Shown: positions 56,654 through 63,712 of the stretch, piece after piece
Layout: the number at the start of each line of letters is the position of its first letter
Numbering within the stretch: position 1 is the first letter of the stretch
From: Bacteroidia bacterium
GTDB lineage: Bacteria > Bacteroidota > Bacteroidia > Chitinophagales > Chitinophagaceae
Assembly (NCBI GenBank): GCA_030427635.1
Contig: JAUIBA010000004.1
Location: forward strand, 1-64,000
Direction: 5' to 3'
DNA: 64,000 bases
Program-made: the position numbers and the translations under genes
Notes under the pieces: generated by a model
Told to the model about the DNA's origin: nothing
What the model saw: the letters and a program-made list of their open reading frames with translations, nothing else
The model's database searches: none

Positions 56654-56816
56654 AGCATTGATTTACAACAACAAAGTGTGCAGAAAATTACTTTGCACAT
56701 GCGCTCATTATACCCGTAGCGCTCTTATTCCGGCACATGACCTGCTGCAGTCGTATAGATGACTACAATCAGCCGGTCATGTAACAATTGTTACAAACCA
56801 TTGCTGTGCACGGTGG

Positions 56817-56824
56817 TACCTTTA
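56817..56824 (+). promoter_or_regulatory. -7-like element of the DUF983 gene
   Basis: TACCTTTA (last base off consensus) lies 24 bases before the ATG at 56849. Confidence 0.45.
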
Positions 56825-56848
56825 CATCATCAACAAAAACCACAGAAA

Positions 56849-57289
56849 ATGGCCACCCATAACCACAATACCGACACAAAACCATCTGCTATCGGTGCCA
56901 TACTGCACCATAAATGTCCCAGCTGCCGTAAAGGCGACATGTACTGCCAGCACAGCATTTTTCCAATGAAAACCATGCTGGACATGCCCGAAAAGTGCGC
57001 CGAATGCGGACAGCCTATGGAACCTCAGATAGGGTTTTATTATGGCACAGGATATGTAAGCTACGCGCTTTCAGTAGCCCTGTTCATTTTTAACCTGGTT
57101 TGGTACTGGGCACTGTTCGGACTCTCTTATAAAGACAACAGTATCCTCTACTACCTCGTTACCTCTATAGGCATTGTGCTGCTGGTTCAGCCATATATCA
57201 TGCGCATATCCCGGGTACTGTACCTGTATATGTTTGTAAGGTATGGCGCACATACCAAAGAAGCTCAGGATACCAGCCCGGCTGTGTAA
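56849..57289 (+). CDS. DUF983 membrane protein
   Basis: About 146 residues from ATG 56849; the open frame further upstream covers the promoter. A zinc-ribbon-like front part has two Cys pairs (HKCPSCRKGDMYC and EKCAECGQP), then GFYYGTGYVSYALSVALFIFNLVW begins two or three membrane helices. This is the DUF983 layout; in many bacteria such genes sit near cytochrome oxidase genes, which are absent here. Function unknown. A terminator follows. Confidence 0.88.
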   Translation: MATHNHNTDTKPSAIGAILHHKCPSCRKGDMYCQHSIFPMKTMLDMPEKCAECGQPMEPQIGFYYGTGYVSYALSVALFIFNLVWYWALFGLSYKDNSILYYLVTSIGIVLLVQPYIMRISRVLYLYMFVRYGAHTKEAQDTSPAV

Positions 57290-57312
57290 TTACTACATAT
57301 TAAGATTGCCAT

Positions 57313-57354
57313 TCAGGAAGGATATATTCAAAACATATCCTTCCTGAGTTTTTT
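57313..57354 (+). terminator. Terminator after the DUF983 gene
   Basis: TCAGGAAGGATAT (57313-57325) pairs perfectly with ATATCCTTCCTGA (57335-57347), followed by a T-run. Confidence 0.8.
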
Positions 57355-57671
57355 CGTCCCCACCCGATTATGAAAAAGCCTGCCATCATGTTGTCATATG
57401 TTCGTTTCTGAAAGAATACAACTACCGCACAGATAGTATTTCCACAACACTCATATAGGATTAAAGTTTTGTGAATTCACCTCATCACAGGAAAATACCC
57501 CCTGAATAAGTATTAAATTCACATTAGAAAACGCACACACCCTGCACCGGGTTGTTCATATAGTCGCAGAGCAATCTACAACCCGCCATTTATATACCCT
57601 TTGGCATCGCTTACCCCCATTAGCCGGCATAATGACAGAACATAACTATTGGTAACACTAAACATTATAAC
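57355..57671. other. Intergenic stretch before the SpoIIAA-like gene
   Basis: No gene is seen. No exact TAnnTTTG element was found close to the next start codon. Confidence 0.4.
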
Positions 57672-58211
57672 ATGATTACAATCATTAATGGCTTACCCGA
57701 TAATGTACTGGGTATACATGCAGAAGGAAAAATAACTGCCGAAGATTATGAAACCGTCCTGATGCCGGCATTACATGCCAAAATAAAAGAGCATCATAAA
57801 ATCCGCATCCTGTACCAGATAGCCGAGAACTTTGATGGGTTTGCTTTGGGCGCTATGCTGGACGATGCCAAAGTGGGCATAGAGCATATTACTGCATGGG
57901 AAAAGGTCGCATTTGTATCTGAAAACCACTGGATAAATTCTATGACAGGTTTTTTCCGCCATCTGATACCTGTAGAACTTCGGGTATTCAATCTCTCCCA
58001 GATGGATGAAGCCAGAGAATGGCTGCTGGAAAGCACCCATCATCAGACCTGGCTTGAAAGAGCATTGGAACGCCTCAATACGGAATTCCCACTATCCGGC
58101 GCTGAAACTGAAGAAGACTTTTCGATAGGTGATGATGAAAGCAGCGAAGACACCACTGAAAGAGAACATCTGAATTCAAACTTTCCTTTATCAGGCGGAA
58201 CCGCAGACTAA
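57672..58211 (+). CDS. SpoIIAA-like (STAS-fold) protein with a repeated C-terminal peptide
   Basis: A 179-residue cytoplasmic protein. Residues 1-122 match the SpoIIAA-like family (ITIINGLPDNVLGIHAEGKITAEDYETVLMPAL; KIRILYQIAENFDGF; VAFVSENHWINSMTGFFRHL), distant relatives of anti-sigma-factor antagonists. The family usually ends there. This one adds an acidic tail with a duplicated peptide, LNTEFPLSG (135-143) and LNSNFPLSG (167-175), separated by an Asp/Glu/Ser stretch. The stress-type gene follows 54 bases later, so a stress operon is plausible. Confidence 0.85.
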   Translation: MITIINGLPDNVLGIHAEGKITAEDYETVLMPALHAKIKEHHKIRILYQIAENFDGFALGAMLDDAKVGIEHITAWEKVAFVSENHWINSMTGFFRHLIPVELRVFNLSQMDEAREWLLESTHHQTWLERALERLNTEFPLSGAETEEDFSIGDDESSEDTTEREHLNSNFPLSGGTAD

Positions 58212-58265
58212 GTACATCATTGCAGCAACCGGAACATTTTTTATAACCACATAAACGAATAAGTT

Positions 58266-58760
58266 ATGAACGCGGCAATAGGTATATATGACAATCATGA
58301 AAAGGCTGTAGCAGCTATCGTAAAACTGAAAGAATCTGGCTATCCGGCAGCCAACCTGACACTTATGGGCCTTACCGAAAACGAAACAGTAGATAATGCC
58401 GAATATGTAAGCCCCGTAAACCCCATAAAACCCGCAGGACTGGGAATAGGGGTACTCGCAGGTACTACACTGGGCATCCTTACAGGCGTAGGCGTTTTTG
58501 CTATCCCGGGCCTGGGCTTTCTTTTTGGTGCCGGTGCACTGGCAGGTGCTATTGCAGGGTTTGACATAGGTATCATAGGAGGTGGTATAGCCACCGTACT
58601 GAACACCGTAGGCGTAAAGGACGAAATAGCTCAGAAATACCATGATGCACTGGCTGCAGGGAAATTTCTTGTAGTAGCCCATGGTAGTGAAGAGGAAGTT
58701 CATAAAGCCGAAGAGCTTCTGAAAGAGCTGAATACCCACTCCGACTATACTAAACATTAG
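58266..58760 (+). CDS. General stress protein 17M-like protein with glycine-rich membrane segment
   Basis: A 164-residue protein. The N-terminal 45 residues (AAIGIYDNHEKAVAAIVKLKESGYPAANLTLMG) match the YflT/17M stress domain. Residues 58-115 are Gly/Ala/Ile-rich hydrophobic (GLGIGVLAGTTLGILTGVGVFAIPGLGFLFGAGALAGAIAG), like glycine-zipper or DUF1269 membrane segments. The C-terminus repeats the ferredoxin-like fold (KFLVVAHGSEEEVHKAEELL). No precise function is known. It follows the SpoIIAA-like gene on the same strand. Confidence 0.82.
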   Translation: MNAAIGIYDNHEKAVAAIVKLKESGYPAANLTLMGLTENETVDNAEYVSPVNPIKPAGLGIGVLAGTTLGILTGVGVFAIPGLGFLFGAGALAGAIAGFDIGIIGGGIATVLNTVGVKDEIAQKYHDALAAGKFLVVAHGSEEEVHKAEELLKELNTHSDYTKH

Positions 58761-58960: not shown

Positions 58961-58992
58961 GTAGGGGTATTTCTTCCTTCAGTTGTCTCATA
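58961..58992 (+). promoter_or_regulatory. Candidate ECF-type promoter of the sigma/FecR operon
   Basis: GTAGGGGTAT (58961-58970) and TTGTCTCATA (58983-58992) are unlike the housekeeping TAnnTTTG promoter. From memory, AGGGGT-type upstream and GTCT-type downstream boxes occur ahead of Bacteroidota ECF sigma genes, which suggests self-activation; treat as inference. Confidence 0.4.
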
Positions 58993-59060
58993 TAGGTAAG
59001 GAAGATAAAACAAGAACAAAGAAGCAGGTAATTTTGACACCATACACCACCGCACCATTA

Positions 59061-59621
59061 ATGGAAAGTGAAATAAGTATTGCAACACACACCTTCAGCA
59101 AGCAGGTGATAGAAGAGGCATTCCGCGCCCACTTTGATGGGCTGTATCGCTATGCCTGGACCATCATAAAAGATGAGCCAATGGCAGAAGAGATGGTACA
59201 GAATGTATTCTACAAACTGTGGAAAAACAGGGAAACAACTACCATCAGTCAGTCGGTAGCCTCATATCTGTACCGCAGCGTATACCATGAATGCCTCAAC
59301 TATCTGAAGCACCTGAAGGTAAAAGCAGCCTGGCAGGCACATGCAGCGCGAACAATGGAAAATATGAACAATGCAGCAGACAAGCTGAAACTGAAAGAAC
59401 TGGAGGAGCGGCTGGAAGAAGCACTGCGGGAGCTGCCGGAACAATGCCGTACCATATTCCAGATGAGCCGCTTTGAAGAACTGAAGTATATGGAGATAGC
59501 CGGGAAACTGGGTATTTCTGTAAAAACGGTTGAAAACCAGATGGGAAAAGCATTGAAACTGCTGCGTGGTAAACTTGCCGACTTTCTACCTGTATTCCTC
59601 TTTATATTATCTAACCTGTAA
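59061..59621 (+). CDS. ECF sigma factor, FecI type
   Basis: About 186 residues from ATG 59061; the upstream TTG at 58983 lies in the promoter. Region 2 reads FRAHFDGLYRYAWTIIKDEPMAEEMVQNVFYKLWKN, and region 4 reads LRELPEQCRTIFQMSRFEELKYMEIAGKLGISVKTVENQMGKALKLLRG with its helix-turn-helix. The layout is that of Bacteroidota FecI sigma factors, which are held at the membrane by FecR until a surface protein signals. The FecR gene starts 11 or 32 bases after the stop codon. Confidence 0.92.
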   Translation: MESEISIATHTFSKQVIEEAFRAHFDGLYRYAWTIIKDEPMAEEMVQNVFYKLWKNRETTTISQSVASYLYRSVYHECLNYLKHLKVKAAWQAHAARTMENMNNAADKLKLKELEERLEEALRELPEQCRTIFQMSRFEELKYMEIAGKLGISVKTVENQMGKALKLLRGKLADFLPVFLFILSNL

Positions 59622-59653
59622 AAACAAGCAACGTGAATAATAACAAACAGAAT

Positions 59654-60640
59654 ATGAGTGACGATATGCTTGTGAAGCACATGCTGGGCGAAGCAAGCCC
59701 GGCAGAGCAGCAGGCAGTGGAAGACTGGGTGGCAGCCAGCGGTGACAACAGCCGGTATTATGACCAATTCCGCCTTATATGGGAGCAGAGTAAAAACCTG
59801 GACATTGCCGGCCCTGCCGATACCGATGCCGCATGGGACAGGTTTATGAACAGAGTGGCAAGAGAAGAAGAAGCAGAGGCCTCAGCATCGGCACGCCGTA
59901 CCATTCCATTACGCCCATCCTACCCACTGATGCGGGTGGCTGCAATGCTGGTAGTGCTTATAGGTGCCGGATGGCTCATATATACTGCGGTAAACGGAGA
60001 CAATGACAACATGACCGTAGCATCGGCCGATAAAGTGTTGAAACATACTTTGCCGGATGGCTCCATCGTTACCCTCAACCGCAACTCTACGCTTGCCTAT
60101 CATGGCGATTTCAACAGGCACAGCCGTAATGTAACCCTGAGTGGAGAAGCCTTCTTTGAAGTAGCCCCCGATAAGTCAAAACCATTTGTAATAGATGCCG
60201 GTAATACATCGGTAACAGTAGTGGGTACCACATTCAATGTAAAGAGTCGTAAAGACATTACAGAAGTGGTAGTAGAGAGTGGTATAGTAGAGGTAGCAAA
60301 GAAACAGAAAGCAGTGCGGCTTATGCCCGGGCAGAAAGCCACCGTATCAGCAGCCAGTGATGCACCCGTAGCTGCCGAAAGTACAGATGTACTCTATAAC
60401 TACTACCGTACCAATGAGTTTGTGTGTGACAACCTGCCCATATTCCGGCTGGTATCTATACTCAATGAGGCCTATGGTGTACAGATAGAGATTACAGACC
60501 CTAAGCTGGCCACACTGCCCATAAATACCACCTTCCGCACACAAAACCTGGATGAGATACTGGATATACTGGGTAAGACATTCAAAGACCAGATGAGGAT
60601 AGAGCACAATGGCAAAAAGATAGTATTAAAGTCAAGATAA
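59654..60640 (+). CDS. FecR-type anti-sigma factor
   Basis: About 328 residues from ATG 59654, or 335 if a GTG at 59633 is used. The N-terminal cytoplasmic part (DDMLVKHMLGEASPAEQQAVEDWV) contacts the sigma factor. One membrane helix follows (about 93-112 from the ATG: LMRVAAMLVVLIGAGWLIYTA). The periplasmic FecR domain is recognisable from LPDGSIVTLNRNSTLAYHGDF to MPGQKATV, and the C-terminal domain (FRLVSILNEAYGVQIEI) is the DUF4974/STN-like partner module. It lies between the ECF sigma gene and a gene for an STN-domain protein in one operon. Confidence 0.92.
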   Translation: MSDDMLVKHMLGEASPAEQQAVEDWVAASGDNSRYYDQFRLIWEQSKNLDIAGPADTDAAWDRFMNRVAREEEAEASASARRTIPLRPSYPLMRVAAMLVVLIGAGWLIYTAVNGDNDNMTVASADKVLKHTLPDGSIVTLNRNSTLAYHGDFNRHSRNVTLSGEAFFEVAPDKSKPFVIDAGNTSVTVVGTTFNVKSRKDITEVVVESGIVEVAKKQKAVRLMPGQKATVSAASDAPVAAESTDVLYNYYRTNEFVCDNLPIFRLVSILNEAYGVQIEITDPKLATLPINTTFRTQNLDEILDILGKTFKDQMRIEHNGKKIVLKSR

Positions 60641-60665
60641 AGTACAGGTAATCATACCTGCAACC

Positions 60666-62441
60666 ATGCAATCTGCAACTTACCTTTACCAGATGTTTGT
60701 AAAACACATTCGTTCTATATTCATATACGCCCTGCTGCTTTTAGTAGCAGGGCATACACATGCACAGTCGCTGCTGCAAAAGACAATTACCGTTAAAGTG
60801 CAGAAAACACGACTTGCAGATGCCCTCACCTCCATCGGGAAACAAGGGGGCTTTTACTTCTCATATAACAGCAATATTATCAGGAAAGACAGCCTGGTAT
60901 CATTTACAGCGCACAACCAGACAGTAAAACAACTGCTGGATAATCTGCTGGGAGATAGCTACAAATATTCTGAAACGGAGAAGTATATCATCATCCATAC
61001 CGAGGATCGCGAAAAGTGGTACACAATAAGCGGTTATATCACTGATGGCAATACGGGAATGGGGCTGGAAGATGCGACCATCTTTGAGCGAAATCAGCTG
61101 GCCAGTGCCATCACAGGTAAGAATGGGTACTTTAGCCTGCACCTGAAAGACAGGGGTAGAATAGGTACCGCAGATATTACAGTGAGTAAGGGCTTTTATG
61201 TTGATACCAGCCTGTCAATAATTAAAGGTTTTGACCAGGAGCTGAACCTGAGCATTATACCGCAAACCTATTCACTGCCAGACATGGTAGTAACTCAGTA
61301 CTCACACATGGAGCGCACATGGCTGGGCAGGCTTCTGGTATCATCCCGGCTGCGTACACAGAATATAAACCTTAGTAAGTTCTTTGTAGATAAGCCCTAC
61401 CAGTTCTCACTTATTCCCGGCCTCGGCACACACGGTAAAATGACAGGACAGGTAGATAACAAATTCTCATTCAACCTCCTGGGGGGATATACTGCCGGGG
61501 TTAGTGGTCTTGAAATTGGCGGCCTGTTCAATATCAATAAGCATGATGCACAATATGTACAGATAGGTGGCTTTTTCAATGCGGTTACAGGCCATAGCAA
61601 GGGCGTACAGATAGGTGGCTTCAGTAACTATGTAGGCAAGAGTGTGGAAGGAGCCCAGATAGGAGGCTTCCTTAATAAGGCAGGAAAAGTGGAAGGGACT
61701 CAGGTAGCTGGCTTTTTCAATGCCGCTTTCGATACAGTAGAAGGGGTACAGGTAGCAGGCTTTATTAATATAGCTAAAGCAGCCGACCTCCAGACGGCAG
61801 GATTTATCAACATAGCCGAAGATATAAGCGGCATGCAGCTCGCTGGCTTTATTAACATTGCTGAGCGGGTAGATGGTATGCAGCTCGCCGGATTCATCAA
61901 CATTGCAGAGAAGGTAAAGGGGGTACAGATGGCCGGATTCATCAATATTGCCGATAGCAGCGACTACCCCATTGGCATCATCAATATATCTGGCAGCGGC
62001 GATGCATCATTGGGCATAACGGCCGATGATCTGGGTACTACAATGCTGGCACTGCGCTCCGGTGGCCGCATCATGTATGGCCTTATCGGTATAGGTAGTA
62101 ATCTCATGTCGCCCGATAATAAGACGTTTGCTGCATTGGAAGTGGGGCTGGGAGCACACCTGCCTGTATCAAAACACTTCCGCATCAGTGCAGAAATATC
62201 GTCCATGACCCTGTCAGATTTTACGTATAACCGCTATCACGATAATGGCATACGCATACTGCCGGCAGTACGTATGGGCAGAGTAGAAGTTTTTGCTGGT
62301 GCAGGCATTCATTATGGGTACTATACATACCGCCCGCAGGCATTGATACCGGAAAACAATATTCTCTGGTCAGGAAATTCCTTTGCAGGCACATCAGAAT
62401 ACCGCATAGGTTACCGTGCGGGTGTCCAGTTCCGGCTGTAA
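60666..62441 (+). CDS. STN-domain surface protein with beta-solenoid repeats, in place of a TonB receptor
   Basis: A 591-residue exported protein with no recognised precedent for its full layout. Signal peptide to THAQ (34); STN domain about 38-112 (TITVKVQKTRLADALTSIGKQGGFYFSYNSN); a carboxypeptidase-regulatory-like beta domain about 118-200; then from 282 to 442 eleven tandem units of 14-16 residues with consensus (G)xQ(I/V/L)(G/A)GFxN(I/A)A, similar to the surface repeats known from Leptospira LA_2272 proteins. The last 145 residues alternate like a small outer membrane barrel and end VQFRL. No plug domain or 22-strand barrel is present. It is 25 bases behind the FecR-type gene. An alternative ATG is at 60693. 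Confidence 0.8.
   Translation: MQSATYLYQMFVKHIRSIFIYALLLLVAGHTHAQSLLQKTITVKVQKTRLADALTSIGKQGGFYFSYNSNIIRKDSLVSFTAHNQTVKQLLDNLLGDSYKYSETEKYIIIHTEDREKWYTISGYITDGNTGMGLEDATIFERNQLASAITGKNGYFSLHLKDRGRIGTADITVSKGFYVDTSLSIIKGFDQELNLSIIPQTYSLPDMVVTQYSHMERTWLGRLLVSSRLRTQNINLSKFFVDKPYQFSLIPGLGTHGKMTGQVDNKFSFNLLGGYTAGVSGLEIGGLFNINKHDAQYVQIGGFFNAVTGHSKGVQIGGFSNYVGKSVEGAQIGGFLNKAGKVEGTQVAGFFNAAFDTVEGVQVAGFINIAKAADLQTAGFINIAEDISGMQLAGFINIAERVDGMQLAGFINIAEKVKGVQMAGFINIADSSDYPIGIINISGSGDASLGITADDLGTTMLALRSGGRIMYGLIGIGSNLMSPDNKTFAALEVGLGAHLPVSKHFRISAEISSMTLSDFTYNRYHDNGIRILPAVRMGRVEVFAGAGIHYGYYTYRPQALIPENNILWSGNSFAGTSEYRIGYRAGVQFRL
61500..61985 (+). repeat. In-gene tandem repeats encoding the beta-solenoid
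   Basis: Eleven degenerate 42-48 base units, each coding for a segment like VQIGGFFNA or MQLAGFINIA. Units in the second half (AGF(I)NIA) are closer to each other than those in the first half (GGFxN), suggesting more recent duplication there. Confidence 0.75.
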
Positions 62442-62452
62442 CACTATTCCTT

Positions 62453-63712
62453 CTATTCTACGGGATAACCCTGCACAAAACGGTACAGCAGCAGCATAGC
62501 CATAGCAGCAGCCATTTCCTTATTGCGGGCGCGGTCATAGAAAAAACGGAACTTCTTTGCTACTACCCCGGTAGCCGATGCAGCAGCCATCCACACGGTA
62601 CCTACCGGCAGTGTGTCTGATGCACTGGCTGGCCCCAGCAGGCCGGTAACGGCCAGTGCATAGTCTGCTTTCAGTAAGCGTTGTGCCCCTGCTGCCATCT
62701 CGCGTGCCACGGCTTCACTTACAGTGCCATGCGCATCCAGCGTTTCCCGGCTTACCCCCAGCAGTTCTGACTTTGAGTAATCACTGTAGCATACTACACC
62801 ACCCTGCAGTATGCCCGATGCCCCCGGCACCTGCGTAATGAGGTGTGCTATAAGCCCTCCTGTGCAGCTTTCTGCCATTGCCATAGTAATGCCCCTGGCG
62901 GTAAACAGGTCATAAAGCACCCGCTCCAGCGGCACATCAGTATGCGCTACTACTATTGTTCCCAGGCGCTCAGCCATTGCATTGCGATAAGGCGTTATTT
63001 CCTCCTGCAGCAGGCTCACAGAGTCTCCCCTGCCTGTGAGTCTCAGCTTCACGGTACCGGCTCCTGGCAGATAAGCCAGCCTTATATGGGGCGGCAATGA
63101 GTTTTCAATGTCCGCTATTTTCTCAGCTATAAAACTTTCACCCTCACCGGCAGTCACCAGCGTATTATGTACTATGGCCCCACTCACAAATCTTTCCCTC
63201 AGCCTCGGCAACACCTCATCTTCCATGATACCCACCATTTCATTAGGCACTCCGGGCAGCGATACCACCACCCTGCCCTCCCGCTCAAACCACATACCAG
63301 GAGCAGTACCCCGTGCATTGAACAGTACGGTACAGCTATCCGGCACTTCAGCCTGTTTCAGATTGCGCTCCAGCATAGGCCTGTTTCGTTTAGTAAACAG
63401 GTCTCTCACATGCGCCAGCACCCGCTCATCTACACGCATCGTGCCACCAAAGTATTCCAGCAGCAGGGGTTTCGTAATATCATCAGCGGTTGGTCCCAGC
63501 CCACCTGTTACTATAACTATATGTGCAGTACGCAGCTCTTCATTCAGCGCCCGTGTTATCGCATCTTTATTATCACCCACTGCCACCCGCCTGTGCATAT
63601 CTATACCCAGCGCGTTAAGATGTGTACCTATCCATGCCGAATTGGTATCTATTGTCTGGCCTATGAGCAGCTCATCACCAATAGTAATGACAGATGCGAC
63701 AGTATTTATCAT
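62453..63712 (-). CDS. cinA: CinA-family protein (NMN deamidase-related/competence-damage type)
   Basis: A 419-residue two-domain protein. The N-terminal MoCF-like domain (ITIGDELLIGQTIDTNSAWIGTHLN; VTGGLGPTADDITK) is the ADP-ribose pyrophosphatase/CinA part; the C-terminal CinA domain (MAMAESCTGGLIAHLITQVPGASGILQGGVVCYSDYSK; LAVTGLLGP) hydrolyses nicotinamide mononucleotide in characterised members, returning pyridine nucleotides. The start codon overlaps the stop of the thioesterase gene (ATGA), a translational-coupling overlap. It converges on the STN-domain gene with 11 bases between stops. Confidence 0.93.
   Translation of the reverse strand: MINTVASVITIGDELLIGQTIDTNSAWIGTHLNALGIDMHRRVAVGDNKDAITRALNEELRTAHIVIVTGGLGPTADDITKPLLLEYFGGTMRVDERVLAHVRDLFTKRNRPMLERNLKQAEVPDSCTVLFNARGTAPGMWFEREGRVVVSLPGVPNEMVGIMEDEVLPRLRERFVSGAIVHNTLVTAGEGESFIAEKIADIENSLPPHIRLAYLPGAGTVKLRLTGRGDSVSLLQEEITPYRNAMAERLGTIVVAHTDVPLERVLYDLFTARGITMAMAESCTGGLIAHLITQVPGASGILQGGVVCYSDYSKSELLGVSRETLDAHGTVSEAVAREMAAGAQRLLKADYALAVTGLLGPASASDTLPVGTVWMAAASATGVVAKKFRFFYDRARNKEMAAAMAMLLLYRFVQGYPVE

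Follow-up and report, generated by a model that had tools for sequence, protein, structure and literature searches.

A sigma factor/FecR operon of Chitinophagaceae with a predicted STN-solenoid-barrel protein in the place of the TonB receptor

The operon and its third product

The window, a stretch of 64,000 nucleotides from a Bacteroidia bacterium of the family Chitinophagaceae, carries close to its end an operon that we analyzed over positions 59061-62441 of the plus strand. The list of open reading frames (ORFs) places three consecutive genes on this strand, coding for an extracytoplasmic function (ECF) sigma factor, a FecR-type anti-sigma factor and a transducer in which an STN domain is joined to a beta-solenoid and an outer-membrane barrel (Table 1). 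The first-pass annotation of the sequence had described a three-gene operon with an STN protein in the place of a TonB receptor, and this was confirmed by the ORFs, Pfam and the structural model. The sigma factor belongs to the TIGR02985 clade (profile scan, E 2.8e-49, above cut-off) and is thus FecI-like. Its start is probably the ATG at 59061, and the listed TTG start at 58983 is probably spurious because it falls inside the predicted promoter element. The anti-sigma factor has the domains expected of FecR, PF04773 (E 6e-19) and FecR_C (PF16344, E 6.8e-10), both above cut-off, together with a weak DUF4880 match below cut-off. Its own genome has no second PF04773 match at E<=0.001.

The transducer comprises, in order, a signal peptide (by eye), a weak STN domain, a CarboxypepD-like domain, a linker, the beta-solenoid and an 8-strand barrel. 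The AlphaFold2 model of the full protein, computed from 71 aligned rows (the window protein and 70 of the 77 transducers of named genomes described below), has a mean predicted local distance difference test (pLDDT) score of 87.1 and a predicted template modeling (pTM) score of 0.52, with low confidence at residues 204-262. It supplies the structure prediction that the first-pass annotation had suggested as a check, and contains the solenoid followed by the 8-strand barrel. Neither a plug nor a TonB barrel domain was found in the transducer by Pfam at E<=1, and the protein is not a TonB-dependent receptor by this measure. The SusC/RagA model TIGR04056 (E<=0.01) did not match it either, and 9 of the 71 aligned transducers touch that model. 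A sequence search of solved structures returned a single match, to a fluorescent protein (E 0.05), which we regarded as due to chance.

Sequence alignments place the first 220 residues or so, Ton-box-like segment included, with the SusC-type transducers. This front part aligned to proteins of 1,089-1,167 residues from six fetched loci; the order sigma-FecR-receptor was found in all six, with a gene of 473-593 residues adjoining the receptor. The alignment extends to residue 215-221 in four of them, crossing SLPDMVVTQY in the Ton-box region, and ends at residue 162 in the other two. In SusC the Ton box VDEVVV comes after the NTE domain, as described in passages of PMC7782687, and SLPDMVVTQY sits at the matching position of the alignment. 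A loose Ton-box-like pattern was present there in 53/71 transducers versus 13% of 1,889 other stretches of equal length, and a strict one in 23/71 versus 2%. Furthermore, PF07660 (STN) was matched at E<=0.1 by 26 of 28 aligned transducers and CarbopepD_reg_2 by all 28. The matches of the relatives, together with the model, support an N-terminal STN domain such as is found in FecIRA-type signalling.

The central part is built from short repeats. Ten of them, with a spacing of 14-16 residues, were found by pattern, and one degenerate unit added by eye gives the eleven repeats originally announced. Their consensus is GVQIAGVxNxVxxxVx, with charges almost confined to positions 12-14 and 16. The copy number varies from 8 to 13 by single steps (48 odd and 23 even among the 71 transducers), and at a score of 50 the underlying DNA does not qualify as a tandem repeat. 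The NCBIfam LA_2272 repeat (NF047436) is matched at E<=0.01 by 60/71 aligned transducers; the window protein reaches E 0.002 with 17.9 bits, short of the cut-off of 25. The solenoid proposed in the first-pass annotation is predicted by an AlphaFold2 model of the repeats only (pLDDT 92.3, pTM 0.83). Among the matches listed by Foldseek for this model, the top ones were the solenoid proteins tapirin, LpxD and GlmU, all with E > 0.1, and a good superposition was obtained with the ice-binding protein 3p4g alone (TM-score 0.66, root mean square deviation 3.8). The long strands assigned by DSSP (11-14 residues) had raised the idea of a barrel with one strand per repeat. This was rejected because the repeat number changes by single units, odd and even, because like positions of adjacent repeats are coupled (mean z 9.3 versus 4.2, a signal partly confounded by repeat duplication), and because none of the 50 matches listed, of 147, to the repeats-only model is an outer-membrane barrel.

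Many of the Foldseek matches listed for the C-terminal part are 8-strand barrels (NspA, OmpA, OprH). The last residue of the barrel is F in 49/71 transducers and L in the window protein. Loops 3 (8 residues) and 7 (21 residues) are long and variable and loops 1, 2 and 6 are short and nearly constant, while the joint between solenoid and barrel has a nearly constant length of 9-11 residues. As a rule, an outer-membrane barrel with an even number of strands and a periplasmic C-terminus also starts in the periplasm, and an 8-strand barrel leaves little room for the passage of a chain. Since the solenoid precedes such a barrel and the long variable loops are odd-numbered, the model indicates that its more likely place is the periplasmic side of the outer membrane and not the surface, where the first-pass annotation had put it. 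A surface-exposed solenoid sensing contact or a ligand directly appears to us a doubtful alternative, to which we gave slightly more weight because loop 5 (5 residues) barely exceeds loop 4 (4 residues) and is no more variable, so that these two loops lack the difference expected if the N-terminus is inside. The name 'surface repeat' in NCBIfam, the nearly uncharged repeat positions 1-11 and the presence of the tapirin adhesin and the ice-binding protein among the better structural neighbours listed are also in its favor. It would nevertheless have to account for the barrel geometry just described and for the STN domain preceding the solenoid, which must remain periplasmic to meet FecR.

Table 1. 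Positions of the features discussed (window coordinates unless a locus is named)
Feature	Position	Strand	Details or basis
Predicted ECF promoter	58962..58987	+	TAGGGGTA 58962-58969, 13-base spacer, TTGTC 58983-58987
ECF sigma factor, 186 aa from ATG 59061	59061..59621	+	TIGR02985
FecR-type anti-sigma factor, 335 aa	59633..60640	+	PF04773, PF16344
FecR_C (PF16344)	about 60419-60625	+	Pfam
STN-solenoid-barrel transducer, 591 aa	60666..62441	+	single open frame
STN domain, residues 36-112	60771..61001	+	Pfam of relatives, AlphaFold2 model
CarboxypepD-like / SusC NTE-like domain, residues 117-197	61014..61256	+	CarbopepD_reg_2 E 5e-5; best PDB match 5aq0
Ton-box-like segment LPDMVV, residues 204-209	61275..61292	+	alignment with SusC-type segment
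Beta-solenoid repeats, residues 264-442	61455..61991	+	repeat pattern, AlphaFold2, Foldseek
8-strand outer-membrane barrel, residues 446-591	62001..62438	+	AlphaFold2, Foldseek
Second cassette half	contig C1, L032 5801-10363		SOLP (416 residues), GIN (237), TonB-receptor-like gene (794)
FecR-like protein of G097	L219 1039-2028		DUF4880 front; periplasmic part without Pfam match

Pfam shows nothing unusual in the genes around the operon (56759-58760 and 62453-63712): DUF983 (weak), SpoIIAA-like and YflT-like (weak), with CinA on the opposite strand.

Conservation in relatives and origin of the barrel

The transducer was searched against 147 genomes of the same family. Relatives were found in 106 of them, many through the TonB-transducer front end alone, and a solenoid gene in 45 (matches at E<=1e-20). 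Around the best matches, 38 of 40 wide loci contain a full transducer, the window included, and in 37 of these 38 the FecR and sigma genes lie directly upstream. A second scan took the best 80 of 331 relatives in named genomes (Chitinophagaceae, Mucilaginibacter, Pedobacter, Dyadobacter and metagenome bins), where the ORF caller gave a full transducer in 77 loci; FecR is immediately upstream and sigma second in 63/77, and FecR occurs within 8 genes in 70/77. The two sets of counts are not independent, several loci being apparently common to both. The architecture of STN plus repeats next to FecI/FecR genes, which had been suggested as something to look for in other Bacteroidota, is therein recovered. 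In a sample of the phylum, 84/395 genomes matched the transducer at E<=1e-20, partly by the front end alone.

These relatives bear on whether the window gene is a normal TonB receptor broken by a frameshift or a misassembly, or else a chance fusion. The front end of TonB-transducer type would be expected in such a case, and an assembly error had been named at the outset as what would overturn the proposal; none was found. The gene is one open frame, the better matches in many genera are stop-free frames of 555-755 residues, the gene order recurs as described above and the AlphaFold2 model is confident. We therefore consider this explanation refuted by the conserved relatives and hardly credible.

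Both FecR domains, FecR and FecR_C, are present in 32 of the 33 FecR proteins scanned. The exception is a genome of the same genus (G097), which has the promoter signature described below, a sigma factor of the same clade and a FecR-like protein recognisable by DUF4880 alone. The transducer query gave no match in this genome, which thus lacks the transducer along with the FecR and FecR_C domains; this co-absence bears only indirectly on a binding of STN to FecR_C.

The named loci further contain an STN-less solenoid sibling of the transducer (SOLP) in 45 of the 77, a DUF2807 protein (GIN) in 32 and a TonB-receptor-like gene in 29. In a tree of the barrels only (127 rows), the 8 rows of the window group are joined by 7 Sphingobacteriaceae transducers and by 43 of the 44 siblings, and the 63 other transducers stand apart from the group that contains the siblings. 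A single clade of all transducers by barrel was rejected by the approximately unbiased test (p-AU 0.0001), with the caveats that a related tree had been viewed beforehand and that the program warns of meeting long branches. By this phylogenetic evidence the barrel half was swapped with that of the sibling in the lineage of the window. Since the window-group barrels cluster with siblings, the STN module is combined with two or more kinds of barrel, including that of the sibling.

STN-less homologues of the solenoid-barrel part also occur in other classes of the phylum (families f24, f29, f43, f48 and f54). Their solenoid and barrel are homologous to those of the transducer and differ from it by the lack of an STN domain. 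Neither a sigma/FecR profile match nor the promoter signature was found in any of the 10 loci fetched (6-12 kb). The idea that these genes belong to another sigma operon was rejected; the neighbours scanned were PagL, cyclophilin, SelR, a PH domain and unmatched genes. In two loci (L227 3969-8038 and L228 5561-6699) the STN-less genes adjoin those of PagL, a lipid A deacylase, and cyclophilin, with SelR in the first. This neighbourhood hints at a role in outer-membrane upkeep.

The upstream signature and the genes that carry it

A promoter signature that is new here, TAGGGGTA-N13-TTGTC, is predicted to be common to the sigma, SOLP, DUF2807 and TonB-receptor-like genes. In the 80 named loci the pattern TAGGGGTW-N14-TGTY gave 102 matches, 93 before genes of the cassette and 9 elsewhere. 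With any other spacer from 8 to 20 the number fell to 0 or 1, save for a spacer of 11 with 10 matches, all before sigma or SOLP genes. The signature was found within 350 bases upstream of 46/73 sigma, 23/46 SOLP, 18/29 TonB-receptor-like and 9/32 GIN genes; the corresponding figures were 0/76 for FecR, 2/78 for transducers and 0/768 for unlabelled genes of at least 150 residues. The 147 family genomes gave 82 strict matches in 42 genomes versus 11 for the reversed pattern, and a control spacer one base longer gave 10 in 9 genomes. For 49 of these 82 matches there is a solenoid gene no more than 8 kb away.

In the window genome, seven sites were obtained with spacers 13-15 versus two for the reversed control, and eight versus three with a looser form. 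Three sites of exact spacing (N14, TGTC) precede the sigma, SOLP and GIN genes, in three units on two contigs, the last two being in the second half of the cassette on contig C1. This differs from the majority of the other loci that have a sibling, where SOLP adjoins the sigma operon.

We also fetched 20 regions, covering 18 of the 21 family matches that lie away from solenoid genes, one match beside a second solenoid gene (G060) and that of G097. The first two downstream genes included two strong and three weak TonB-receptor-like matches, one GIN, one FecR and one sigma gene (G097), and in the remaining 12 regions these two genes matched none of our own profiles. Small proteins that carry the signature away from the cassette form two pairs similar by eye, L204 (366-1016) with L215 (421-1050), and L209 with L210; the first pair has no Pfam match. 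On sequence grounds both families are candidates for further members of the regulon. In another region (L218, genome G018) the signature directly precedes a FecR gene, after which comes a protein of 910 residues that matches the transducer profile, an unusual order. A literature search for a link between TAGGGGT and a Bacteroidota sigma factor found no paper.

Proposed signalling and relation to known systems

Taking together what can be seen in the sequences or the models, namely the domain content, its conservation next to sigma and FecR, the common signature and the grouping of the barrel with the sibling, we think it probable that the operon encodes a cell-surface-signalling circuit whose transducer has kept a SusC-type front and in which the solenoid and the 8-strand barrel replace the plug and the large barrel. 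The mechanism would follow that reported for FecA- and FoxA-type systems (PMC9249621, PMC11637429, in the parts dealing with it), from which we infer docking, cutting of FecR and the signal. By this homology, docking of the STN domain on FecR_C in the periplasm would protect FecR. This protection would be lost when the solenoid-barrel part changes, so that FecR could be cut, and the sigma factor would then switch on its own operon and an outer-membrane set consisting of SOLP, the DUF2807 protein and the TonB-receptor-like protein. As input, the condition or the contents of the outer membrane itself, such as how much of the sibling it contains, seem likelier than a soluble ligand from outside; we favor this because of the position of the solenoid, its occurrence in the sibling and the barrel swap. 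The first-pass annotation had spoken of a pathway without transport. This stands as regards the transducer, which is not a TonB receptor, and does not extend to the predicted regulon, in which 18 of 29 TonB-receptor-like genes have the signature.

A more specific version, unlikely in our estimate, is that the circuit takes an inventory of the outer membrane. It would sense whether the STN-less sibling is present or how far it is assembled, through co-stacking or competition between solenoids, with a possible pull of TonB on the plug-less transducer via the Ton-box-like segment. It was suggested by the fact that the solenoid-barrel of the transducer is of the same kind as a main product of the regulon and that the barrel halves were exchanged. 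If true, the cell would count an outer-membrane protein and adjust its supply.

Less likely still, the transducer could be a constitutive chaperone or anchor of FecR, the signal entering elsewhere, for example through the TonB-receptor-like protein or the proteolysis of FecR. STN domains that guard an anti-sigma factor without a signal are described in a portion of PMC11637429, a barrel-less STN partner, VreA, is reported in excerpts of PMC2729926, and G097 retains the sigma factor and an altered FecR-like protein without a transducer. Such a role fits poorly with a solenoid and barrel kept at full length in 27 relatives at 31-41% identity, and with the exchange of the barrel half with a predicted member of the regulon.

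Several observations weigh against the cell-surface-signalling circuit as a whole. The STN domain of the window protein is sub-threshold (PF07660, E 0.11), and a search of its genome at E<=0.1 returned nothing and thus missed it. Docking of STN on FecR_C is inferred by homology only, the Foldseek E-values for the solenoid are weak (best 0.14) and its periplasmic placement is indirect, being derived from the model. For seven of the 77 named transducers, including one at a contig end, neither a FecR nor a sigma gene lies within 8 genes, and the co-absence in G097 is a single case. The strict signature is missing before 27/73 sigma genes; by eye, the Dyadobacter loci carry the variant TTAGGGTA and no signature was seen in the Sphingobacteriaceae loci. 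Finally, of the 82 strict matches in the family, 21 lie away from solenoid genes in the 45 genomes that have one and 12 in the 102 genomes that have none.

Like FecI/FecR/FecA and its SusC form in Bacteroidota, the system combines in one operon an ECF sigma factor, a FecR that has FecR_C and an outer-membrane partner carrying an STN; with the SusC form it also shares the front end of STN, NTE-like domain and Ton-box-like segment. It would work in the manner of FecIRA-type signalling and departs from it in one of the defining features, since its transducer is not a TonB-dependent receptor. It also differs from the six canonical SusC-type relatives in the signature preceding its sigma operon; TAGGGG was absent from all 12 of their upstream stretches, and its presence in these systems was rejected. 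The NTE precedes the STN in the SusCs treated in passages of PMC7782687, whereas the STN comes first in the window transducer and in the six relatives.

An STN partner other than a TonB receptor has a precedent in the PUMA3 system of Pseudomonas aeruginosa, where VreA is a 23 kDa protein with an STN and a TolA/TonB-like C-terminal domain and no barrel (PMC2729926, in the excerpts describing VreA). The two systems are alike in this partner of the anti-sigma factor and differ in its C-terminal part, which is a solenoid and barrel in the window protein and not TolA/TonB-like. A search of titles and abstract openings, with thin coverage of subscription journals, found no solenoid transducer. Among known families, LA_2272 and VC2662 (NF047437) come close, 60/71 and 51/71 aligned transducers matching them at E<=0.01; the window protein itself falls short of the cut-off for LA_2272, and for VC2662 it gives no match at that threshold. 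We know of no STN domain in either family. In classical autotransporters a solenoid passenger is followed by a 12-strand translocator, unlike the 8 strands of the window model.

In this arrangement the part that STN plays in signalling is set apart from nutrient transport in Bacteroidota, and the signature lets the regulon of this sigma clade be read from genomes. As no second FecR was found in the window genome, cross-talk from sister FecR systems would not disturb a study of the circuit. Whether a family of outer-membrane proteins can report on itself through an ECF sigma factor thereby becomes testable.

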